The translations under genes and the position numbers were made by a program. Below, piece by piece: positions 40,155 to 64,000 of a stretch of 64,000 nt of DNA. Source of the DNA: Methanolinea sp. Its GTDB lineage: Archaea; Halobacteriota; Methanomicrobia; Methanomicrobiales; Methanospirillaceae. The notes below the pieces were generated by a model. That model was not told the DNA's origin. It saw only the letters and a program-made list of their open reading frames with translations, and made no database searches. Position 1 is the stretch's first letter, and every line of letters starts with the position of its first letter. Where the stretch lies: positions 1-64,000 of the forward strand of contig JANIHI010000011.1 in assembly GCA_024518585.1 (NCBI GenBank), written 5' to 3'.

Positions 40155-42137
40155 TCAGGCCCCGTTCGGGACGTAGGACGGCCACATGATACGGATGGCC
40201 TGGACCCGCCCATACCGTGCATCCGCGTTCTGCGGGTTGAGCTGGATCGCCTTGTCAAACGACCGGATGGCATCCTGGATGCGCCCGAGCTTGACGAGCG
40301 TGTACCCGCGGCTTGACCAGACATTTGAATTGGCGGGGTCTTTTTCCAGGAGGGCGTCATAGATGGCAAGGGCTTTCTCGTACTGGCCGTCCTGGTAGTA
40401 GGCTATCCCCTGGTACATGACTGCCTGGGTATTGTCGGGGGCAATCTCCCGGACGAGATCAAAAGTCTTTATTGCGCCCTTGTAATCTCCTGAATAGTAC
40501 TGGACCTGGCCCTTGAAGAGGAGGGCGTCGAGGTTGCCCGGGTCGAGGGAAAGTACCTTTTCAAGGGCGATGAGTGCCTCGTTTCCCCTGTTGACAATGA
40601 CCAGGGCATGGGCTTTCCGGAGGAGGAGGGTCACATTCCCGGGGTCCTTCCAAAGATCCCAGTCCGTGGACCGCACTGCTTCTTCCCCTCGCCCGAGGCC
40701 CCTGAGGGCAGAGACCTTGTAGTCCCAGGCGTTCATGTTCACTGGATCGAGCGAGAGAACCCTGTCAAAGGCACGGACTGCCCCCTCGTCGTCCTGTGAA
40801 TAGAGGAGGGCCCTCCCCTTGCTCAGCCAAATGTCCGGGGCTTTGCTGTTGATTGCAAGTGCCCTGTCGAAAAAGGATGATGCCTCCTGGTACTGACCCT
40901 TTTCAAGGAGTGCCATCCCCCCGACAGACCACGCAAGAAAACTCCCGGGATCCCGTGAAACTGCCTGTTTTGCATCAGCAACGGCCTCATCGAAATTTCC
41001 ATTGCGGTAATTCGCCAGTGCCCGGTAGGTCCACGCGGTGGAGATTGAAGGTTCCAGCTGGATGGCCTGGTTCAAGTCGGCGATCGCCTCCTCGTATTTT
41101 CCGAGGTTCAGGTACGAGTACCCCCTGTTGGTCAGGGCAACGACATTGCGGGGGTCACTTCCGATCGCCCGCGAGTATGCCGGCACTGCTTCCTCAAACC
41201 TGCCCATGGAGTTGTAGGCAAATCCCTTGTTGTTCCATGCGACCGAGTTTTGAGGGTCAATTGAAATGGCCTTCTCCGCGGCCGCGATTGACTCGTTCCA
41301 CATGCCGAGGTTGTTGAGGATGTAACTCTTCTGGACCCAGTAGGTCGCATTCTCCGGGGATATCTCGAGCATGCGCTCATAGACCGAAAGTGCATCAGTA
41401 TTCCTGCCCATCAGGGTCAGGAGAGATGCCTTTTGCAACAGGAGGGGTGTATCGTTGGGTGAAAACCGGAGGGCATACTCGTAGGCAGACAGTGCATCAT
41501 CGTACTTTCCGAAGCGGAAATAGAGGTCTCCCATGGCACGGGCTGCATCACCCGATGAGGGGTCCATCTCGGTTGCCTGCCGGTAGACATTGAGGGCTGC
41601 ATCATATTTCCTGACCGCGACCAGGACGTCCCCGAGGTTCTTTGCCGCCGGCGCAAATGACCCATTCGTGCGCAGGGCTGCCAGGAACGCTCTCTGTGCG
41701 CCCTCATAGTCACCCGCCCGGGAGAGGGCCTTTCCAAGACCCATCCAGCTTTCTGTTGAATTCATGTCGCGGGCAATTGCCTGGTTGTATGCATGAATGG
41801 CATCCCCGGTCCTATTCATTTGGAGGAGGATATCCCCGGCGGTAACCCAGCGGGAAACAGGGTCCGGATCTAATGCAAGTGCCCGTTCAATGGCTTCGAG
41901 GGCATCCGTGGGCCGTCCCATTTCACCGAGTACTTCTCCCTTTCCGGCCCAGGCTGCACTGTTATTGGAATCAAGGGAGATCGCCTCATCGTAGAGAGCA
42001 AGTGACTGCCCGAGGTCCCCCTTCTCCTGGAGATCCCGTGCCTCAGCGACAAGGTCACGGGGCGCAGGGGAGAGACATCCGGAAAGAGCGAGCACTACTC
42101 CAATGAGGGCAAGACAGAGAAAAACCCCTCTCCGCAT
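40155..42137 (-). CDS. TPR-repeat lipoprotein
   Basis: A 660-residue secreted protein. The signal peptide ends in a lipobox (VLALSGC), so it is probably lipid-anchored outside the membrane. The rest is a solenoid of about 16-18 tetratricopeptide repeats, each ending in the pattern (A)LDPxN / SLDPGN. TPR arrays bind other proteins. The minus-strand TATA box CTTTTATGG ends about 20 bases before the ATG, so the transcript is nearly leaderless. It lies next to the secreted-protein cluster and could help assemble or anchor those proteins, which is speculation. Confidence 0.88.
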   Translation of the reverse strand: MRRGVFLCLALIGVVLALSGCLSPAPRDLVAEARDLQEKGDLGQSLALYDEAISLDSNNSAAWAGKGEVLGEMGRPTDALEAIERALALDPDPVSRWVTAGDILLQMNRTGDAIHAYNQAIARDMNSTESWMGLGKALSRAGDYEGAQRAFLAALRTNGSFAPAAKNLGDVLVAVRKYDAALNVYRQATEMDPSSGDAARAMGDLYFRFGKYDDALSAYEYALRFSPNDTPLLLQKASLLTLMGRNTDALSVYERMLEISPENATYWVQKSYILNNLGMWNESIAAAEKAISIDPQNSVAWNNKGFAYNSMGRFEEAVPAYSRAIGSDPRNVVALTNRGYSYLNLGKYEEAIADLNQAIQLEPSISTAWTYRALANYRNGNFDEAVADAKQAVSRDPGSFLAWSVGGMALLEKGQYQEASSFFDRALAINSKAPDIWLSKGRALLYSQDDEGAVRAFDRVLSLDPVNMNAWDYKVSALRGLGRGEEAVRSTDWDLWKDPGNVTLLLRKAHALVIVNRGNEALIALEKVLSLDPGNLDALLFKGQVQYYSGDYKGAIKTFDLVREIAPDNTQAVMYQGIAYYQDGQYEKALAIYDALLEKDPANSNVWSSRGYTLVKLGRIQDAIRSFDKAIQLNPQNADARYGRVQAIRIMWPSYVPNGA

Positions 42138-42439: not shown

Positions 42440-43216
42440 TCAGAACCGTCGGATACCCGACTGGTAACTCATCGCCTTGCTGAAGGATGCAATGACACCG
42501 GAGGCGGCGGTCTTCTCGGAATAGACCAGGTCCATGCCCTTGTCAGTCTCACCCCTGCCCTCCTGGAGGTGAGCGCGGATCCAGGCGGATGCTGCACCCC
42601 GGCCGGAGAGGTCAACGGTGTATTCCATGCCGGCGGGAACATCTGCAGACAGCGAGATATGCCTCTCCATGGCAGTCGTGGTCAGGGAAACAGAGGTCCC
42701 CGAGAACGAGCTGCCCATCTCAATGATGTTGCAGTATGCCGGGATTGTGCCGGTGCCTGACGACCAGGGACAGAGGACCCGGTCGGCAGAAGAAGATCCC
42801 GTGCTGACGGTATCGAGCAGGAGGCTCTCTTCACTTATCACGCTCCCAAAGGCATCCTCAAAGCTTTCGAAGTCCATCTGCCTGACAGACCTGAAATTAC
42901 CCTGGTTTGCTGCCTTTTGTCCGGTATCGAGGTTCATGCCCTTGTTGTATTCAACATACCCGTTATTTGCAAGGGTGGTCTCCGAGTAGGACATCGTTGC
43001 CATGCGCTCTGATGAGCCGAGGGGTGGGTTATCGGCGAGACCACCGCTCGACTGCTGCCAGACGATGGTATCGACCTCTGAAAATGTCCCGTAGACTACA
43101 ACGGATGTCGAAGTCGTGATCCCCATGGTCTCGTATGTTGCATTCACAGGGTCATCAGCAGAGGTGATGCCCACCAGGGAAATGCAGAGGAATAAAAACA
43201 AAACGGCTTTCTTCAT
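42440..43216 (-). CDS. Secreted paralogue family member 1
   Basis: A 258-residue protein. The signal peptide (residues 1-20, LFLFLCISLVGITSA) is followed by a Ser/Thr/Gly-rich, beta-type region with LADNPPLGSSER, two Cys (LCPWSS and AYCNIIEMGSSFSG) and the family C-terminus KGMDLVYSEKTAASGVIASFSKAMSYQSG. The two Cys may form a disulfide. It shares this layout with five other full or partial genes in the window. I do not recognise the family; it is presumably exported and may be a surface-layer or filament component. A GAGGAG site precedes the ATG. Confidence 0.8.
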   Translation of the reverse strand: MKKAVLFLFLCISLVGITSADDPVNATYETMGITTSTSVVVYGTFSEVDTIVWQQSSGGLADNPPLGSSERMATMSYSETTLANNGYVEYNKGMNLDTGQKAANQGNFRSVRQMDFESFEDAFGSVISEESLLLDTVSTGSSSADRVLCPWSSGTGTIPAYCNIIEMGSSFSGTSVSLTTTAMERHISLSADVPAGMEYTVDLSGRGAASAWIRAHLQEGRGETDKGMDLVYSEKTAASGVIASFSKAMSYQSGIRRF

Positions 43217-43275
43217 TTATGATCTCCTCTTTGATGCAGGGAACTAAAAAACAATAGTGATCTTTTTTTAATTTA

Positions 43276-43647
43276 TTACGATTGGACACCGGAGATATAA
43301 CTGAACGACTTGCTGAACTTCAGGATAGTTCCCGATGCCGTGGTCTGTTCAAAATAAGAACCACTCAACGAGTTATAGGCAGGTGATGCCCCCGACATGA
43401 ACCGTGACCGCATAAATGCCGAAGCAGTCCCAATGCCAGAGAGGTCAACAGTGTAACCGGTCGTCACCGGTTTCAGGACGCTGGATCCGACAAACCTGTC
43501 GGTTGCGACCGTCGTCATGGACACGGATGATCCTGAAAAGGAACTCCCCATCTCCGCGCCGGAACAATACGAGTACAAGGTTTCTGCGCCTGCTACGCCT
43601 GTCAACGCAAAGGCAAGAACTCCTATTAATAGTATCCATTTTATCAT
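43276..43647 (-). CDS. Half-length secreted paralogue
   Basis: A 123-residue protein with its own signal peptide (WILLIGVLAFALTGVAGA). The mature part corresponds only to the C-terminal half of the neighbouring family: YCSGAEMGSSFSGSSVSMTTVATDRFVGSS, TVDLSGIGTASAFMRSR, and QTTASGTILKFSKSFSYISG. It keeps one of the two conserved cysteines. Because it has a good GAGGAGG site and an intact signal peptide, it is probably a functional short form rather than a broken copy. A TCCTGA/TCAGGA hairpin sits 28 bases upstream. Confidence 0.75.
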   Translation of the reverse strand: MIKWILLIGVLAFALTGVAGAETLYSYCSGAEMGSSFSGSSVSMTTVATDRFVGSSVLKPVTTGYTVDLSGIGTASAFMRSRFMSGASPAYNSLSGSYFEQTTASGTILKFSKSFSYISGVQS

Positions 43648-43674
43648 TGTCAGTCCTCCTCGTAGATCTCTTTC

Positions 43675-43691
43675 TCCTGATCATTTCAGGA
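43675..43691. promoter_or_regulatory. Leader inverted repeat of the half-length paralogue
   Basis: TCCTGA and TCAGGA are perfect 6-bp arms around a 5-nt loop. They lie in the leader, upstream of the ribosome binding site. Confidence 0.45.
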
Positions 43692-43755
43692 TTACGGGTA
43701 TATTAAAACTTTGTCCCTGATGGGGGAGTTAAAAAAATATCAGGTGGATTTTTTA

Positions 43756-44142
43756 TCAGGGGAAACGAAAAGCATCATCAAGTGTCTTTGCCGAAGAAAG
43801 CTTCAGAGTCGGGGTTGAAAAGACTGCATCGTAGGTTTTTGCTGAGGACGGTTTGATCGTCGGAGTTGCAAAGACTGTGTCGAAGGTCTTTGCTGATGAT
43901 GGTTTGATCGTCGGAGTTGTGAAGACCTCGTCAAAGGTCTTGCCTGATGATGGCTTCACCGTTGGACCTGCAAAGGCTGTATCGTTCGTCAACCCCGAGG
44001 AATACTTCAAGGAAGGAATGGCAAATTCCTTGTCATAGGATTTACCAGAGGACGAGGTCATGTTTTCCCAGAATGCCGAAACACTGCACCCTGTCAGAAC
44101 GAGCAGGCAGATGCAAAATACAAGAAATCCAATTTTTTTCAT
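43756..44142 (-). CDS. Lipoprotein built of 17-residue tandem repeats
   Basis: A 128-residue protein. The lipobox LVLTGC at the end of the signal peptide predicts lipid anchoring. The mature part consists of about four to five tandem copies of a 17-residue unit, KPSSAKTFDTVFATPTI and variants, beginning with a diverged copy (YSSGLTNDTAFAGPTV). The underlying 51-bp DNA repeats are about 80-90 percent alike, so the array expanded recently and may vary in number. No function is recognised. Its position inside the secreted cluster suggests an envelope role. Confidence 0.75.
   Translation of the reverse strand: MKKIGFLVFCICLLVLTGCSVSAFWENMTSSSGKSYDKEFAIPSLKYSSGLTNDTAFAGPTVKPSSGKTFDEVFTTPTIKPSSAKTFDTVFATPTIKPSSAKTYDAVFSTPTLKLSSAKTLDDAFRFP
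43768..43976. repeat. 51-bp tandem coding repeats
   Basis: About four copies of a 51-bp unit in the lipoprotein gene, visible as recurring GGTTTGATCGTCGGAGTTG and AAGGTCTTTGC blocks on the plus strand. Confidence 0.7.
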
Positions 44143-44548
44143 TGTGAAACCTCCTTTTTTATACGTGTTTTTGTCCGTGATTTCTTATATTTTCCTATTG
44201 GAGATTGCGTGTGCAATAAAATTTCCTGGCAAGAATCAAAAAACAACAGTAGTGAAAATCCCTCTTCATCATTTCAGGTGGGTACGTTGTATGAATGGAT
44301 TACAGCCTCTCGCTGGATTGAGCTGGTTAATCCAAAAAAATATCGACTTAATGCGAAATGAATGGTGAAACCGCCGCCGGGTCGCCGTTTTGGGGGCGGC
44401 GGAACTATCCTCATGTGGGGGTTTGGTGGCAAGGCAGCCCCCACTTCAGTTCCCGTCCACCCACTCAAAATAACGAAGAACCAAAAAAAAAAACGAATTT
44501 TTTGAGGGGTATTTACCCCTCATTGTCCCGTGGCTCTGCCGTGAGGTA
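44143..44548. other. Intergenic region carrying repeat copy B
   Basis: About 400 bp between the lipoprotein and the next secreted paralogue. It contains an AT-rich promoter-like stretch for the lipoprotein gene (TTTTATACG and TTATATTTTCC near 44157-44198), repeat copy B, a run of A, and the inverted pair GAGGGGTA/TACCCCTC near 44513-44532. That pair is probably the terminator stem of the downstream-ending paralogue. Confidence 0.45.
44263..44482 (+). repeat. 220-bp dispersed repeat, copy B
   Basis: It aligns end to end with 17348-17567. Here the central stem is longer and perfect (CCGCCGCC with GGCGGCGG), and AAACC/GGTTT can close an outer stem. The differences from copy A keep some of the pairing, which favours a structured RNA or a folded mobile element. 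The surrounding genes run on the opposite strand. Confidence 0.75.
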
Positions 44549-45340
44549 TCAGAACCGGCGGACGCCGGACTGGTAGCTCATTGCCTTGCTGAAGGATGCA
44601 ATGGCACCGGAGGCAGTGGTCTTCTCGGAGTAGACGAGGTCCATGCCCTTGGTAATTTCTTCATCAATCGGGCTCCTGCCCTCCTGGAGGTGAGCGCGGA
44701 TCCAGGCGGATGCTGCACCCTGGCCAGAGAGGCCGACGGAGTAGTCCATTGCGACCGGCACATCAGCACTGTTTGCAACGTGCCTCTCGCTGGCAACGGT
44801 TGTCATGGAGACTGCAACGCCAGAGAATGTGCTGCCCATCTCGACAATGTTACAGTAAGCAGGGAACACACCGTCAGTAGTCGTGGCGAATGGACAGAGG
44901 AATCTGTTATCCTGGTCGTGGTCCACGGCTGCACCGTCAAGGAGCAGGCTCTCGGAGGTTGCCACCTGGCCGAATGCCTCGTCAAAGGACGTGTAGTCGA
45001 ACTGCTTGGTCGACTTGAAGTTGTTCTGGTTGGCGACCTTGTTGGCAGTGTCGAGAGCATTCACAGCGTTGTACTCGGCGTAGCCGTTGTTTCCACTGAT
45101 GGACTGGGAGTAGGACATGGTGTACTGGCGTTCACCATCAGCGAGGGAAGCTCCCCTCATGTCCTGGTTGCTCTGTGTCCAAACAATGCTCTCAGCGTTT
45201 GTCACTGCACCCTGGGCAATGACCGCGGTAGACGTCGAGAACCCCTGGGTCTCGTATGTCTGGTTAACGGGGTCATCTGCCATTGCAAGTCCTACGGCAA
45301 GGACGGCAAGAGCAATGACCGCAATTGCGAATTTCTTCAT
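44549..45340 (-). CDS. Secreted paralogue family member 2 (duplicate A)
   Basis: A 263-residue protein. The signal peptide ends in AVGLAMA. The mature protein begins DDPVNQTYETQGFSTSTAVI and has the two conserved cysteines (FLCPFA, AYCNIVEMGS). It ends with KGMDLVYSEKTTASGAIASFSKAMSYQSG. It is rich in Ser, Thr, Asn and Ala and has no membrane anchor. It differs from duplicate B by a single residue (Ala for Val). A GTAGGAGG site and a 7-bp hairpin precede the ATG. The family is unrecognised; export and a structural role are inferred from the signal peptide and copy number. Confidence 0.82.
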   Translation of the reverse strand: MKKFAIAVIALAVLAVGLAMADDPVNQTYETQGFSTSTAVIAQGAVTNAESIVWTQSNQDMRGASLADGERQYTMSYSQSISGNNGYAEYNAVNALDTANKVANQNNFKSTKQFDYTSFDEAFGQVATSESLLLDGAAVDHDQDNRFLCPFATTTDGVFPAYCNIVEMGSTFSGVAVSMTTVASERHVANSADVPVAMDYSVGLSGQGAASAWIRAHLQEGRSPIDEEITKGMDLVYSEKTTASGAIASFSKAMSYQSGVRRF

Positions 45341-45359
45341 TATTTTCCTCCTACAGTTT

Positions 45360-45378
45360 ATGCTGATACTCTCAGCAT
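45360..45378. promoter_or_regulatory. Leader hairpin of duplicate A
   Basis: ATGCTGA and TCAGCAT are perfect 7-bp arms around a 5-nt loop, 10-12 bases before the ribosome binding site. The same hairpin stands before duplicate B, and a related one with other bases stands before member 4. Confidence 0.5.
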
Positions 45379-45383
45379 CAACC

Positions 45384-45680
45384 GTTTATGTGTGCGGGAA
45401 CCCCATAAGAGTTTTTCTCTCTTTCTTCCTTTTTTGGCTCTATTTCGCTTTTGGGCAGAAACACCTCCAAGGCAGTGAGATGAAGTCTATCCCTGGATAT
45501 CCTCACAATTATTATTCCCATAGCCTCATCAGATGAACATGTCTGGCTCTGGTTCACTCAAAGAATTCTCGTCCCGTACCTGCAAGAGATATACAGGATA
45601 GAATCCGCCGCACTTCGGTGCCGAAAAAGGTCTGGGCTAAACCAGTTTTTCAAAATTCTGACGAAAACCAAAAAAAAAAT
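45384..45680. other. Unique spacer between the duplicates
   Basis: About 300 bp that are not part of the 889-bp duplication. They hold the promoter region of duplicate A on the right-hand side of its leader and no gene or repeat that I can identify. Confidence 0.4.
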
Positions 45681-45734
45681 GAATTTTTTGAGGGGTATTT
45701 ACCCCTCATTGTCCCGTGGCTCTGCCGTGAGGTA

Positions 45735-46526
45735 TCAGAACCGGCGGACGCCGGACTGGTAGCTCATTGCCTTGCTGAAGGATGCAATGACACCGGAGGC
45801 AGTGGTCTTCTCGGAGTAGACGAGGTCCATGCCCTTGGTAATTTCTTCATCAATCGGGCTCCTGCCCTCCTGGAGGTGAGCGCGGATCCAGGCGGATGCT
45901 GCACCCTGGCCAGAGAGGCCGACGGAGTAGTCCATTGCGACCGGCACATCAGCACTGTTTGCAACGTGCCTCTCGCTGGCAACGGTTGTCATGGAGACTG
46001 CAACGCCAGAGAATGTGCTGCCCATCTCGACAATGTTACAGTAAGCAGGGAACACACCGTCAGTAGTCGTGGCGAATGGACAGAGGAATCTGTTATCCTG
46101 GTCGTGGTCCACGGCTGCACCGTCAAGGAGCAGGCTCTCGGAGGTTGCCACCTGGCCGAATGCCTCGTCAAAGGACGTGTAGTCGAACTGCTTGGTCGAC
46201 TTGAAGTTGTTCTGGTTGGCGACCTTGTTGGCAGTGTCGAGAGCATTCACAGCGTTGTACTCGGCGTAGCCGTTGTTTCCACTGATGGACTGGGAGTAGG
46301 ACATGGTGTACTGGCGTTCACCATCAGCGAGGGAAGCTCCCCTCATGTCCTGGTTGCTCTGTGTCCAAACAATGCTCTCAGCGTTTGTCACTGCACCCTG
46401 GGCAATGACCGCGGTAGACGTCGAGAACCCCTGGGTCTCGTATGTCTGGTTAACGGGGTCATCTGCCATTGCAAGTCCTACGGCAAGGACGGCAAGAGCA
46501 ATGACCGCAATTGCGAATTTCTTCAT
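45735..46526 (-). CDS. Secreted paralogue family member 3 (duplicate B)
   Basis: A 263-residue protein, identical to duplicate A except for Val in place of Ala in the C-terminal motif TTASGVIASFSKAM. Val is what members 1 and 4 have at this position, so the substitution probably happened in duplicate A. It has the same signal peptide, cysteines, ribosome binding site and leader hairpin. The near-identity points to a very recent duplication or ongoing gene conversion. Confidence 0.82.
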   Translation of the reverse strand: MKKFAIAVIALAVLAVGLAMADDPVNQTYETQGFSTSTAVIAQGAVTNAESIVWTQSNQDMRGASLADGERQYTMSYSQSISGNNGYAEYNAVNALDTANKVANQNNFKSTKQFDYTSFDEAFGQVATSESLLLDGAAVDHDQDNRFLCPFATTTDGVFPAYCNIVEMGSTFSGVAVSMTTVASERHVANSADVPVAMDYSVGLSGQGAASAWIRAHLQEGRSPIDEEITKGMDLVYSEKTTASGVIASFSKAMSYQSGVRRF

Positions 46527-46545
46527 TATTTTCCTCCTACAGTTT

Positions 46546-46564
46546 ATGCTGATACTCTCAGCAT
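46546..46564. promoter_or_regulatory. Leader hairpin of duplicate B
   Basis: Same ATGCTGA/TCAGCAT hairpin as before duplicate A. Upstream sequence differs, so the two copies may have different promoters with the same leader. Confidence 0.5.
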
Positions 46565-46746
46565 CAACCAGACATTTTAGTTAAGGATGCATAAGAACTT
46601 TTCTCTCTTTTGGCGGGTTTGGAGGCATTTTTTTTTTAAATATAGACCATGAGTTGCACCCGATTGGGAAAAAAGGTAGTTAGAGATTATGAGAGAGGGG
46701 TTTTGCCCCTCCCTCCAGGCTACATTGCTCTTTTGACTGTGCGATA

Positions 46747-47526
46747 TCAGAACCGGCGGGCGCCGGATTGATAGCTCATTGCCTTGCTGAAGGATGCGAT
46801 GACACCGGAAGCAGTGACCTTCTCGGAGTAGACAAGGTCCATGCCCTTATCTTCCGTACCCCTGCCCTCCTGGAGGTGAGCGCGGATCCAGGCGGATGCT
46901 GCACCCTGGCCAGAGAGACCGACGGAGTAATCCATTACGACCGGCACATCAGCACTGTTCGCAACGTGCCTCTCGCTGGCAACGTTTGTCATGGAGACTG
47001 CAACGCCCGAGAAGGTGCTGCCCATCTCGATGATGTTACAATACGGTGGGAACTTATTGACCGACGCTGCAAACGGACAGAGGAACTTGTCTGGTGCAGT
47101 GTCTACAGAACCAACACCGTCGAGGAGCAGGCTCTCGGAGGTTGCGACCTGTCCGAATGCCTCGTCAAAGGACATGTAGTCGAACTGCTTGGTCGACTTG
47201 AAGTTGTTCTGGTTGGCAACCTTGTTGGCGGTGTCAAGAGTGTTCACACCGTTGTACTCGGCATACCCGTTGTTCCCGGAGATAGACTGGATGTAGGACA
47301 TCGTGTACTGGCGTTCCATTGTAACGTCGAGGGAAGATTCCGTCATGTCCCGGTTGCTCTGAATCCAAACAATGCTCTCAGCGTTTGTCACTGCACCCTG
47401 GACAATGACCGCGGTCGACGCCGATAACCCCTGCGTCTCGTATGTCTGGTTCACAGGGTCATCTGCGATTGCAAGCCCTACCGCAAGGACAGCAAGAGTA
47501 ATGACAGCAATGGTAAATTTTCTCAT
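46747..47526 (-). CDS. Secreted paralogue family member 4
   Basis: A 259-residue protein, clearly related to members 2 and 3 over its whole length but with many substitutions (DKFLCPFAASVNKFPPYCNIIEMGSTFSG; GTEDKGMDLVYSEKVTASGVIASFSKAMSYQSG). The signal peptide ends AVGLAIA. GTAGGAGG precedes the ATG. The leader has an ACGCT/AGCGT stem in the place of the hairpin seen in the duplicates. Upstream AT-rich DNA (TTATAATATTAA on the minus strand) provides a strong TATA candidate. Confidence 0.82.
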   Translation of the reverse strand: MRKFTIAVITLAVLAVGLAIADDPVNQTYETQGLSASTAVIVQGAVTNAESIVWIQSNRDMTESSLDVTMERQYTMSYIQSISGNNGYAEYNGVNTLDTANKVANQNNFKSTKQFDYMSFDEAFGQVATSESLLLDGVGSVDTAPDKFLCPFAASVNKFPPYCNIIEMGSTFSGVAVSMTNVASERHVANSADVPVVMDYSVGLSGQGAASAWIRAHLQEGRGTEDKGMDLVYSEKVTASGVIASFSKAMSYQSGARRF

Positions 47527-47544
47527 TACTTCCTCCTACATTTT

Positions 47545-47566
47545 ACGCTGATTTTCACCTTAGCGT
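47545..47566. promoter_or_regulatory. Leader inverted repeat of member 4
   Basis: ACGCT and AGCGT form a 5-bp stem with a 12-nt loop at the position of the hairpin in duplicates A and B. The shape is kept but the bases differ. Confidence 0.4.
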
Positions 47567-47735
47567 TAATTGGATGTTAATATTATAATTAGTATAATAA
47601 TTTTTTTCTTATTTACCGGGTTCGGGGCACTTTTTTAAAGAAACAGCCTTGACAGCACCGATTGGGAAAAAGGACCTTGTCCCGGAAAGGGGGCAGAGGG
47701 GTGAGTAACTGATCCGCTTGATTGCACCTGTTCCT

Positions 47736-52767: not shown

Positions 52768-52783
52768 ACGGGATGCGTCCCGT
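52768..52783. promoter_or_regulatory. Leader hairpin before the eL15 gene
   Basis: ACGGGA and TCCCGT form a perfect 6-bp stem with a TGCG loop, about 50 bases before the eL15 start and just after a TATA-like TTCTATAGG. It may be a site for ribosomal autoregulation. Confidence 0.4.
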
Positions 52784-52832
52784 CAAGGAATGTGGCCTGG
52801 ATCCTGGGCTGAACCTGGAAGGTGTAAAAATA

Positions 52833-59262: not shown

Positions 59263-59295
59263 TCACCCAAAACCGTTGCGCGAAAAAAAAACCGT

Positions 59296-59368
59296 GCCCA
59301 GGTAGTGTAGTGGCCTATCATGTCGGCCTGTCACGCCGACGACTCGGATTCGAATTCCGACCTGGGCG
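59296..59368 (+). tRNA. tRNA-Asp (GUC)
   Basis: The acceptor stem GCCCAGG pairs with CCTGGGC, with discriminator G. The anticodon loop CTGTCAC has anticodon GTC, and the T loop is TTCGAAT. It has no intron. It lies 33 bp after tRNA-Tyr and is probably transcribed with it. Confidence 0.94.
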
Positions 59369-59489
59369 TCTCCTTTTATCGTTCTTCACCATTTCACGGG
59401 GAAGAGCAGCCCGCGTGGTTTTCAGCCTCCCGAAGTTTTACATTTGGTGACAGAACGAAAAATTGCTGTCTTGAGAGGAACATGCTAAT

Positions 59490-59727: not shown

Positions 59728-60813
59728 ATGAAAAAGCAGTGGTTTTTAATCGGGATCTTGATCCTTGCCTGGATTCTCGTGTGCACGGTATCGGCAGATG
59801 TTCGTCCCCCGGAGACGAAGGAGACACAGTCCTTCGCGACCGTCACCTCCGTGGAAGTATATGGGGCCTTTTCCGAAAGCGATATCCTTGGATGGAGGCA
59901 GAGCAACGAGGCGCTTGATAAAAATAGGGATTATATTTCCAATGCGCCACTACTAGACGATGACGGAGATTGGACATTTACCGGTGAGAATATTGAAAAT
60001 ATGCAACCGTCCGACTGGAGACCCAGGGAACCAGGTGATGAAAATCAATTTTGGATTTTTGCATTTTTCCCTTATCCAAATTTTCCACCCCTCTTTGAAG
60101 GGTTTGTCGAATCTCCAGAACCGCCCCTCGGCCGGTACGAGGTCCAGATAGCATCTTCAATACGGGAAGATACCCTGGCAAACCAGGGCCTGACTTCCTA
60201 TGCAAAACAGTCATCCATTGATACCCGAGCCCCGGCGGCAAACATGTTCAATGTTGAACAGAGGAAGGCAGTCGGGTTTGCAGGAACTGCGACGGGGCGA
60301 ATCGTTTCGGATGAATCCGCATTGATTGACGGAGCGGGCGCAACGATTCAAACGGCCGGCCGGCAACTCGGGAGCTGCCCGTTCCTGAACGATTGCATTG
60401 GAAACTGCGTGCCACCGTTCTGCACTATCGTGGAGATGGGGAGCATGCTTGACATGAAGGAAGTGCAGTTTGCGAGCGAGGTGAAATCAAGGACGATTGC
60501 GAAAGTGGCCATCGAAAGCGGTGAGTCCTCCTCGGACGAACCAGCGGCACAGGTGGCATTCCCCGTCATCGATGGTCCGCCAACCACCCTCGTGTATGGT
60601 ATCAGGGTGACGGGTCCCGGTCAGGCACCGGCTGCGGTCGGGGATGTGATGGCTTACATGAACGTCCATGCCCAGGATGGGAGCCCTGGTTGCCCTGGTT
60701 CCTCCCTTGCAAAAGGTATAGATCTCGTCTACAAGGAGAAGACAACTGCCGGAGGTTACGTCTCCCTCTTTGAAAAGAAGATGCAGTATGAATCCGGGAT
60801 TCAGTGTCACTGA
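59728..60813 (+). CDS. Secreted paralogue family member 5 (long form)
   Basis: A 361-residue protein with a signal peptide (LIGILILAWILVCTVSA). It begins DVRPPETKETQSFATVTSVEVYGAFSESDILGW. After an insertion of about 70 residues rich in Pro, Phe and acidic residues, it returns to the family pattern with ESALIDGAGATIQ, CIGNCVPPFCTIVEMGS and the C-terminus KGIDLVYKEKTTAGGYVSLFEKKMQYESG. It has more cysteines than the clustered members. The ATG follows a CCGGAGG site. A palindrome upstream may control it. Confidence 0.78.
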   Translation: MKKQWFLIGILILAWILVCTVSADVRPPETKETQSFATVTSVEVYGAFSESDILGWRQSNEALDKNRDYISNAPLLDDDGDWTFTGENIENMQPSDWRPREPGDENQFWIFAFFPYPNFPPLFEGFVESPEPPLGRYEVQIASSIREDTLANQGLTSYAKQSSIDTRAPAANMFNVEQRKAVGFAGTATGRIVSDESALIDGAGATIQTAGRQLGSCPFLNDCIGNCVPPFCTIVEMGSMLDMKEVQFASEVKSRTIAKVAIESGESSSDEPAAQVAFPVIDGPPTTLVYGIRVTGPGQAPAAVGDVMAYMNVHAQDGSPGCPGSSLAKGIDLVYKEKTTAGGYVSLFEKKMQYESGIQCH

Positions 60814-60836: not shown

Positions 60837-61178
60837 TTAACCGACTTTCTGAGTGACGTGAACACGCCATTTGATTTTTTGCAAAGCACACTCAATCGCC
60901 AGCTGTGCACACGGGTCCGTGTCCTCGAGCATCCGTTCGAGGTAGGGAATCGCCCTCCTGCTCCCCGTGTTGCCGAGCGCCCACGCAGCAAGAACCCTGA
61001 CCCCCGGGTCATCATGGTAGAGACCCTTGATGAGGATATCAACAGCATCATCCCCCTTTTCACTCAGTGAGCGTGCGGCCCTCCACCGGGTATCGACTAC
61101 CGGGCTCTGGAGACATTCAAGAAGGTCATTGACTTCCCTCCCAGGACTCCGCTCTCCCGTCTCACCAGGGTGTGTCAT
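60837..61178 (-). CDS. Short HEAT-repeat protein
   Basis: A 113-residue protein with about three HEAT-like helical pairs (VVDTRWRAARSLSEKG, DPGVRVLAAWALGNTGSRRAIPYLERML, CAQLAIECALQKI). Such proteins are usually protein-protein adaptors; phycocyanobilin-lyase-type HEAT repeats have the same DPGVRxxAAWALG pattern. A minus-strand TATA box (CTTTTATATG) lies about 35-45 bases before the ATG, so the leader is short. Its role beside surface proteins is unknown. Confidence 0.8.
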   Translation of the reverse strand: MTHPGETGERSPGREVNDLLECLQSPVVDTRWRAARSLSEKGDDAVDILIKGLYHDDPGVRVLAAWALGNTGSRRAIPYLERMLEDTDPCAQLAIECALQKIKWRVHVTQKVG

Positions 61179-61312: not shown

Positions 61313-63544
61313 ATGACTCCTAATGAAGGAAAGGTTCCCTATGGTACTCTCATCCTTGCAGTGATACTTTTCGGGTGTATCCTGGCAGGCGTGACGTCGG
61401 CCCAGACGACAGCGACTTTCACAGGTCTCGGTGCAGGCGAAAACATATATACGAGATATTACAGCCGGTATACGCCGGCACGGGTTTTTAACATGACGGT
61501 CGGTTCGACGATGTACGAAGGCTTCTGCATCGACCTCTACACGACCATCAGCATCGGGAACACCCTCGTTGTCAATGGTCCCCTCTCGGACGACATCCGG
61601 ACCCAGGTGGACTGGTGCAAGGTCAATTACATCCTTTACCAGTACGGTTCGAATTACACGTCAAAACCGAATCCCAACCTCGAAGCAGCGGCAATCCAGT
61701 CGGCACTCTGGTACCTGACCACTGCCCCCTATGGGCCATATACGGGTTCGGGCGGAAGGTACCAGTTCATGACTGATCCAAACACGACAGCACCGTACGA
61801 CGCCTACCGGCAGTCAGGCAGCCCCCGGGACGCGGTGAGAGCGAGGGCGAATGATATTCTCGCCTCGATACCATTGAACGAGTCGGGCAAATGTGACTAC
61901 AGGTTCCCGACCCGCATAACGCTCACGCCGGTTGTCCAGAGTACGAGTCCAGATGGGATTGTACCCCTGGTTGCTACCGTGTATGACCAGTACCATCAGC
62001 CACTTTCCGGGATCAACGTCACTTTCTTACCCAGTTCTGGGACTGTGGCACCCACGAGTGGAGTTACAAATTCGACTGGGGAGGTTCAAATTTCGTTTAC
62101 TGCACCGGGGACTACGGAGGGACATGCTCACATCATGGCTGATGTGAGGGGTAACTACGGGACCCTCCTCTATGACCCGGGGAGGAACCGCCAGTCTGTG
62201 ACAACGATCTCCCTCCTCCCTGGTTCAATCAGTGCGAATGCAACGGTTCTCTGGCAAAGTCTCCCGTCAATCAAGGTTGAGAAGCTGATATCGACCGATA
62301 ACGTGACCTTCACGCACGCAGAAGTGCCCATCAGTATTCTCCAGGGATATCCCGTCTATTACAAGTACATTGTCACCAATGACGGGAATGTTCAGCTTTA
62401 CCCGGTTAACCTGACAGATTCAGTATTTGGAGATTTATGCAGTGACAGGACACTGAACCCTGGAGAATCATTTACCTGTTACCATAAAGAGGATCAGGCA
62501 AAAGAGGGTGTCAATTGCAATGAAGCCAATGCAACGGGGTATAATGGCACACAGCTTAATTGGGATACCGACACCGCCTGCTACAATGCAAGTCCCACCT
62601 ACAAGAAATCAGGGACAGTCTACTACGATGAGAACGGTAACGGCAAGCAGGACCCCGGTGAGCCGGGCATATACAACGTGACCATGTGGCTCTGCATTAA
62701 TTGTGGAAATATATACCCCTGCAGCACTATCAACATTACAAGGACCGACGCCAATGGGTACTACGAGTTCCCGCTCCTGACGCCAGGGCCTTACGTGGTA
62801 AGCGTTCCCGCCGTAACGGACGGGGATTTGTATGATTACAATGAGAAGCTGTATGCCAACGCAAGTCCCGTGCTCGTCCCGCCGCTCGTCTACAACGACG
62901 ACCCCGTCCCCCGGACATGCATCTTCTTCACTATCACTGACACCAATCACACGGGCAACAACTTCGGCTTCTTCCGCTGGCTATACGTGACAGGCTACAA
63001 GTACCTTGATGCCAACAAGAACGGGCAGAGGGATGCCGGTGAGCAGGGCCTCCAGGACTTCACGATAAAGGCATATAATATGACCTGTCTCTACACATCC
63101 ACGGTCTCTTCTCCGTCGGGCTACTATGAACTCGTCATCAAGAGTCCGGGTATTTACACAGTGAATGAGACCCCCAAGACAGACTGGCAGCAGACTGAGC
63201 CTGCCACGGGGAAACTTGTGTTTACGGCAGTTGCCGGGACCAACGTGACGCAGAACTTTGGAAATTTCCAGGTCCAGAACTGCTGTGCATGCCCGACCCA
63301 GGCAGTATTTGCATACAGTGCCCTCTCCTCACCTCCCCACACCATCCAGTTCACCGATAAAACGACGGGAAATCCCATATCCTGGCTATGGAACTTCGGG
63401 GATGGAAAATATTCACTGTCACGTAACCCGGTCCATACCTATGCGAAGTCCGGGACCTATTCCGTGAAGCTGTCAGTAAAGGCACAGGATTGCAGTGGGA
63501 AGACCTACTGGACGTATTATTCCCTGGGAGTGAGGGTTCCCTAA
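61313..63544 (+). CDS. Large secreted protein with predicted thioester domain, Ig-like, SdrD-B-like and PKD domains
   Basis: A 743-residue exported protein (signal peptide about residues 10-30). Residues about 35-195 look like a bacterial-type thioester domain: MYEGFCIDLYTT with Cys72 and AAAIQSALWYLTT with Gln129 match the Cys and Gln that form the internal thioester in Gram-positive adhesins. A Big_1-like Ig module follows (TLTPVVQSTSPDGIVPLVATVYD), then two SdrD-B-like modules with DENGNGKQDPGEPG and DANKNGQRDAGEQG. A C-terminal PKD domain is also present (FTDKTTGNPISWLWNFGDG). Many N-glycosylation sequons are present. No membrane anchor is visible at the end. An adhesin or matrix role is inferred. 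Confidence 0.85.
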   Translation: MTPNEGKVPYGTLILAVILFGCILAGVTSAQTTATFTGLGAGENIYTRYYSRYTPARVFNMTVGSTMYEGFCIDLYTTISIGNTLVVNGPLSDDIRTQVDWCKVNYILYQYGSNYTSKPNPNLEAAAIQSALWYLTTAPYGPYTGSGGRYQFMTDPNTTAPYDAYRQSGSPRDAVRARANDILASIPLNESGKCDYRFPTRITLTPVVQSTSPDGIVPLVATVYDQYHQPLSGINVTFLPSSGTVAPTSGVTNSTGEVQISFTAPGTTEGHAHIMADVRGNYGTLLYDPGRNRQSVTTISLLPGSISANATVLWQSLPSIKVEKLISTDNVTFTHAEVPISILQGYPVYYKYIVTNDGNVQLYPVNLTDSVFGDLCSDRTLNPGESFTCYHKEDQAKEGVNCNEANATGYNGTQLNWDTDTACYNASPTYKKSGTVYYDENGNGKQDPGEPGIYNVTMWLCINCGNIYPCSTINITRTDANGYYEFPLLTPGPYVVSVPAVTDGDLYDYNEKLYANASPVLVPPLVYNDDPVPRTCIFFTITDTNHTGNNFGFFRWLYVTGYKYLDANKNGQRDAGEQGLQDFTIKAYNMTCLYTSTVSSPSGYYELVIKSPGIYTVNETPKTDWQQTEPATGKLVFTAVAGTNVTQNFGNFQVQNCCACPTQAVFAYSALSSPPHTIQFTDKTTGNPISWLWNFGDGKYSLSRNPVHTYAKSGTYSVKLSVKAQDCSGKTYWTYYSLGVRVP

Positions 63545-63770: not shown

Positions 63771-64000
63771 ATGAAAGGCAAAACAGCTCTATTGGTAGCA
63801 CTCGTTGTGGTTATTGCCCTATGCGGAAGTTATGTAACCGCAGCACGAACACTACCCCCCACGAACGAGACATCAACAATATCAGTGACCACGTCTGTCT
63901 CTGCTATCGGGAATGTCTACTCGAGATCCGATATTGTGTATGTGCAGGGCAACGGTAACCTCTCGGATAATCCACCGCTCTCCCAGGACGGAGAAGGACA
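63771..64000 (+). CDS. Secreted paralogue family member 6 (cut by the window end)
   Basis: The first 76 codons of a gene that continues past the window. The signal peptide (LLVALVVVIALCGSYVTA) is followed by ARTLPPTNETSTISVTTSVSAIGNVYSRSDIV and LSDNPPLSQDGEG. The blocks PPxxETxxxxVTxSV, SDI and L-DNPPL are shared with members 1 and 5, so it belongs to the same family. GGTGG precedes the ATG. Confidence 0.75.
   Translation, partial: MKGKTALLVALVVVIALCGSYVTAARTLPPTNETSTISVTTSVSAIGNVYSRSDIVYVQGNGNLSDNPPLSQDGEG

Follow-up and report, generated by a model that had tools for sequence, protein, structure and literature searches.

The 64,000-nt stretch of DNA analysed here (the window) most probably holds an array of SH/MspA genes from a Methanolinea-like methanogen that has a sheath, with main subunits whose genes bear a 5′ leader hairpin and with a TPR helper protein. 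We put the probability of this reading as a whole at roughly 0.88. The genome holding the window (1.78 Mb, 27 contigs, 96.5% complete) has eight SH copies, seven of which lie within or overlap the window and the eighth on contig C16. The features of the array and its surroundings are the following:

40155–42137, reverse strand: TPR lipoprotein P0007 of 660 aa with the lipobox LSGC and many TPRs; a candidate for sheath assembly or anchoring
42440–43216, reverse strand: SH protein gene, 258 aa, adjoining the TPR lipoprotein gene, without leader hairpin
43276–43647, reverse strand: half-length SH protein, 123 aa, corresponding to the C-terminal half of the SH core
43756–44142, reverse strand: secreted protein P0008 with 17-residue repeats, found beside SH genes in same-genus relatives
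44549–45340, reverse strand: SH protein gene, 263 aa, recent duplicate of 45735–46526
45341–45387, reverse strand: leader with the same hairpin as at 46527–46573
45735–46526, reverse strand: SH protein gene, 263 aa, capless
46527–46573, reverse strand: leader with a 7-bp hairpin (ATGCTGA-GAGTA-TCAGCAT) and the Shine-Dalgarno sequence GTAGGAGG
46590–46603 (approximate), reverse strand: putative BRE/TATA-like box GAAAAGTTCTTATG, at a hairpin distance common to the leader-bearing genes
46747–47526, reverse strand: capless SH protein gene (259 aa) at the head of the array; adjoins a methyltransferase gene, which precedes mspA in Methanospirillum too
47526–47575, reverse strand: diverged leader copy with an ACGCT...AGCGT stem and GTAGGAGG; its folding alone is weak (z −0.83)
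59295–59370: tRNA-Asp(GUC), upstream of the diverged SH gene
59728–60813, forward strand: diverged SH protein, 361 aa, 3′ of tRNA-Asp(GUC), with an extra insertion where the MspA cap sits
63771–64000, forward strand: first part of a CCPWG-subtype SH protein of 273 aa; the gene extends to contig position 64592

The sheath protein genes and their relation to MspA

The first-pass annotation had described a row of four full-length genes and one half-length gene, and two further members, and all of these could be confirmed; the row is on the reverse strand and the two further members are on the forward strand. The cysteine pair it had placed around CPxxx...YCNIxEMGS is found as CPF/CPW...YCNI-EMGS in all four clustered full-length proteins, and the N-terminal signal peptides of the SH copies are visible by inspection of the sequences. 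The C-terminal pattern it had proposed applies only approximately: the half-length member has YFEQ in place of YxEK and the window-end member, which also misses the second cysteine, ends in YSDVTSASGLFTLAKEVSYTSG. The neighbouring genes at 44549 and 45735 differ by one nucleotide in 792, and the two copies align over 911 nt at 99.6% identity with the leader included. Half-length SH copies near the TPR gene are found again in several genera.

The same annotation had called the family unrecognised. Searches of Pfam, NCBIfam and PDB sequences with the window proteins indeed gave nothing useful, and a PDB profile search returned a single 21-residue chance match; the literature, however, knows the family as the SH/MspA sheath protein (PMC6242892, PMC10593813 and PMC11576556). 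A profile made from six copies of the window genome gave 11 match segments in the M. hungatei genome, and the same-genome-copy profile matched a 377-aa M. hungatei protein with an E-value of 5.5e-28. This match (Mhun_2271, WP_011449234.1; cysteines 257 and 271, 40.5 kDa) agrees with the published figures for MspA/SH, which give 377 aa, 40.6 kDa and C271 (PMC6242892) and two cysteines with Cys257 at the tip of the linker (PMC10593813). The single cysteine stated in PMC6242892 is contradicted by the sequence, which contains both C257 and C271. BLASTP of a window protein against MspA aligned the whole core with ≈25% identity (E 1e-15). Scanning with MspA gave matches in M. stamsii, in a Methanospirillum MAG and in another MAG; the M. 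stamsii relative is 66% identical to M. hungatei MspA, which is the top figure for M. stamsii in PMC6242892.

Of 74 full-length relatives, 72 have a cysteine near the linker position and 64 have one at the sheet position. Both the linker and the core-strand cysteine are present in the four clustered full-length copies, and the half-length and CCPWG-type copies each miss one. In the SH family the core is expected to be amyloid-like, with two stacked six-stranded β-sheets. AlphaFold2 predicts strands in the window protein P0003, and these correspond one by one and in the same order to those of the M. stamsii MspA model; both models are of moderate quality (pLDDT 78 and 70, 11 sequences). The M. 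stamsii model has an additional helical segment at the location of the cap. The M. hungatei-type cap (a six-helix domain that also has a sheet and follows the first strand) is not present in the 258–263-aa copies, which have no insertion at that place. As capless SH proteins are described in PMC11576556, the missing cap rules out only the M. hungatei-type subtype.

The Foldseek and VIA-align matches share long strands without a common fold (TM-score ≤0.27 among the matches listed, Z ≤6.5), the best Foldseek matches in the PDB being trivial long-strand matches. The families DUF2114 and bMG10 stayed below threshold.

Based on the profile homology, the paired cysteines, the predicted strand order without a cap domain and the mspA locus, the seven window genes belong, as judged from their sequences, to the SH/MspA family of archaeal sheath proteins known from Methanospirillum and Methanolinea. 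The array is a new member at the known mspA locus of an already known protein family. It shares with M. hungatei SH/MspA the homologous sequence, the predicted export, the paired linker and core-strand cysteines, the position beside the methyltransferase gene and the 5′ leader hairpin, and differs from it by its shorter copies (258–263 aa), the lack of a helical cap, the ≈25% identity and the tandem array with a near-identical duplicate pair. In M. hungatei the sheath protein builds amyloid-like rings that surround the cell (PMC10593813), and the earlier guess of a polymer-forming surface coat gains support from this homology to a ring-forming, amyloid-like protein. The Methanolinea SH proteins of the 2024 survey (PMC11576556) are likewise multi-copy and clustered, with near-identical neighbours, and lie near tRNA-related housekeeping genes.

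Some further observations concern individual SH genes. The CCPWG-type subfamily (the window-end member at L063:72-893 and its relatives) has adjacent cysteines, mostly lacks the second core cysteine and forms a separate group in the tree. A HEAT-repeat gene (60837–61178) adjoins an SH gene, and M. hungatei (L050) also has a HEAT-like gene beside an SH gene. The gene at 61313–63544, for a secreted 743-aa protein with SdrD_B, Big_1 and PKD domains, sits between two SH genes. An AglB/STT3 oligosaccharyltransferase gene is found between two SH genes in M. stamsii (L060:9246-11678); the SH cap has been named as a possible glycosylation site (PMC10593813).

The 5′ leader hairpin

The sequences upstream of SH genes have GTTGATGCTGAGAGTATCAGCATAAA(C/A)TGTAGGAGG in common. 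This leader hairpin is placed before the Shine-Dalgarno sequence of the main SH genes at a nearly fixed distance from it, and it is identical in M. hungatei mspA and two window genes, whose proteins are ≈25% identical. The window has two exact matches to the leader pattern, where shuffled sequences lead one to expect none. The two leaders fold better than shuffled sequences do, with z-scores of −3.7 and −3.1; the diverged third scores −0.8.

The stem also shows covariation. In an alignment of 81 distinct sequences, made to fit the structure and with a few antisense reads among them, both sides change in six of the seven pairs; 10 cells with both-side changes were observed against 1.0 in shuffles, and shifted pairings performed worse. 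A MAFFT alignment of the leader points in the same direction, with both-side changes in three pairs.

Upstream of the stem, at a distance of 39 to 26 bases, there is a purine-rich and T/A-rich box. Scans for sigma-70 promoters and terminators are not applicable to archaea. In archaeal promoters a box at this distance would place the start of transcription close to the hairpin, and the hairpin may therefore stand at the 5′ terminus of the mRNA.

The distribution of the leader was determined with a covariance-model search. Within the family it is found in 44 of 53 SH-bearing genomes and in none of the 47 SH-less ones. Across the order 33 of 199 genomes have it, all of them inside the family and SH-bearing. 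Among 393 genomes searched across the phylum, a single match falls outside the family, in G338; it is due to chance, with a degraded stem and a position in an ABC-transporter region. The window genome has three matches, each directly before an SH gene of the array, and M. hungatei has one, before mspA. When 40 further matches were retrieved, an SH gene lay directly downstream in 36, two ran off the contig, and the other two, with E-values of about 0.007, were unrelated, so that no good-scoring match was seen away from an SH gene. Viral contigs gave no exact match to two leader patterns.

No family in Rfam 15 matches the leader hairpin. The eL15-Euryarchaeota leader (RF03144) and other Rfam leaders resemble it in being short structured 5′ leaders by an archaeal gene start, and differ in sequence, structure and gene. 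An eL15-Euryarchaeota ribosomal leader is also present in the window itself, at 52769–52820 before the L15e gene. Our literature search found no paper on the untranslated region of Methanospirillum sheath genes and, as far as that search went, the leader hairpin appears to be unreported.

Gene neighbourhood and the TPR lipoprotein

The gene order L15e-moaC-nnrD-DHH-PUA-NAC-methyltransferase-SH is common to the window and M. stamsii. The other end of the window array, with the TPR lipoprotein gene, a gene with an AIRS domain and a DUF460 gene, matches a second M. hungatei locus, which has one full-length and one half-length SH gene too. A tRNA-Asp(GUC) gene lies upstream of this second locus in M. 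hungatei, in M. stamsii and in one further genus, and likewise upstream of the 59.7-kb member in the window; it stands directly before an SH gene in L066 of M. hungatei, L134 of M. stamsii and L095 of genome G047. In M. hungatei (L066:3601-4308) and G047 (L095:2165-2884) a gene for a PKD-domain protein separates the half-length SH gene from the TPR gene.

Of 100 genomes of the family, 53 have SH proteins, and none of these 53 belongs to genera g2, g3, g7 or g10. This fits the loss of SH in Methanoregula published in PMC11576556. The SH-less genomes form one clade in the AIRS tree (SH-aLRT 84), and the joint absence of SH, TPR gene and leader may therefore be a single event.

The annotation had flanked the cluster with two dedicated lipoproteins. 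For the TPR protein the lipobox recurs in nearly all complete homologues, with a few that the search pattern left unmatched, and its gene neighbourhood tracks the SH genes. The protein with 17-residue repeats, on the other hand, is no lipoprotein in its family: its homologues in that place have LTGYSVSA, IGGASA, LIGSASA and LSGSVTA, and no cysteine.

The AIRS-domain gene, which occurs with or without SH, was used as the landmark for comparing TPR neighbourhoods. A TPR gene of this type was found in the SH/AIRS neighbourhood of 37 of the 44 SH-bearing genomes compared and of none of the 35 SH-less ones. Five of the seven exceptions are g4 genomes whose stretch stops at or near a contig end, and in three of these (G166, G212 and G214) a TPR match is listed on a different contig. 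The remaining two exceptions are SH-bearing g13 genomes with no TPR gene beside AIRS. In the SH-less genomes the best genome-wide TPR matches fall inside reading frames of 2,000 to 5,400 codons.

The 2024 survey reports conserved genomic context and an assembly protein as absent for SH genes and has no TPR protein in its main text (PMC11576556). As far as we found, the TPR-SH neighbourhood appears to be unreported. PilW, Tgl and PrsT, bacterial TPR lipoproteins of surface assembly, have a lipobox and a TPR solenoid facing outside as well; the similarity to them is generic TPR similarity, and most scores are below the curated cut-offs. The above-cut-off scores of the TPR lipoprotein for PilW, MamA and LcrH are TPR cross-hits.

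Sheath formation and alternative readings

The SH proteins, predicted to be exported, would fold into long antiparallel strands. As with SH of M. hungatei, the subunits most likely join edge to edge in rings that surround the cell, with the linker and core cysteines tying adjacent rings together. The leader-bearing genes (44549, 45735 and 46747) most likely supply the bulk subunit, and the remaining SH copies probably encode specialised or minor subunits. The main copies would be transcribed from their own promoters into short-leadered mRNAs beginning at or near the conserved hairpin. The hairpin probably acts by stabilising the mRNA or by controlling translation, which would allow very large amounts of one subunit to be produced. 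The TPR lipoprotein, in turn, probably holds or hands over SH subunits at the outer face of the membrane.

What speaks against this scheme is that the four clustered full-length copies have no MspA-type cap and that identity to MspA is only ≈25%. They could be SH relatives with another surface role (minor coat, adhesin or plug) in an organism without a full sheath, and the half-length and CCPWG-type copies would agree with that, as would the minor and specialised copies that published SH families contain (PMC11576556). Yet the array stands at the mspA locus and bears the leader that M. hungatei has solely before mspA, and the 2024 survey reports SH proteins in every Methanolinea it examined (PMC11576556); we hold a sheathless organism to be very improbable. 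That the hairpin is a DNA element, such as an operator or a recombination site spreading SH copies, and no RNA element, we regard as unlikely, if somewhat less so. A palindrome is a typical protein-binding DNA site too, the both-side changes fit such a site as well and do not decide alone, and the near-identity of two neighbouring copies across leader and gene means that the hairpin travels with duplicated genes. An RNA element is favoured by the position downstream of the BRE/TATA-like box, at a nearly fixed distance to the Shine-Dalgarno sequence, by the 5-nt loop, which is not palindromic, and by the 40 further matches with their lack of good-scoring hits elsewhere.

AIRS is itself a stable neighbour, and the linkage of TPR and SH genes may partly be plain synteny. 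With the AIRS gene present whether or not SH is, and the SH-less genomes forming one clade that could go back to one event, the TPR lipoprotein might be a bystander held in place by regional synteny with the AIRS and DUF460 genes, which we consider a serious possibility a little short of even odds. Against it, SH genes lie between the AIRS and TPR genes in genera g4 and g14, the TPR gene of a g11 genome is ≈2.3 kb from AIRS and close to SH genes, and all 35 SH-less genomes lack the TPR gene beside AIRS.

Under the preferred reading of a sheath gene array, the hairpin could represent a new RNA family, a sheath-specific mRNA leader that marks and boosts the main subunit and stayed nearly unchanged while the protein diverged to ≈25% identity, and the TPR lipoprotein could be the first candidate sheath-assembly factor in these archaea; we judge this wider proposal to be evenly balanced. 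A leader that singles out the main sheath genes offers a direct, testable handle, as does a lipoprotein gene that keeps close to SH genes, and the leader may be used to flag likely major sheath genes in uncultured genomes.
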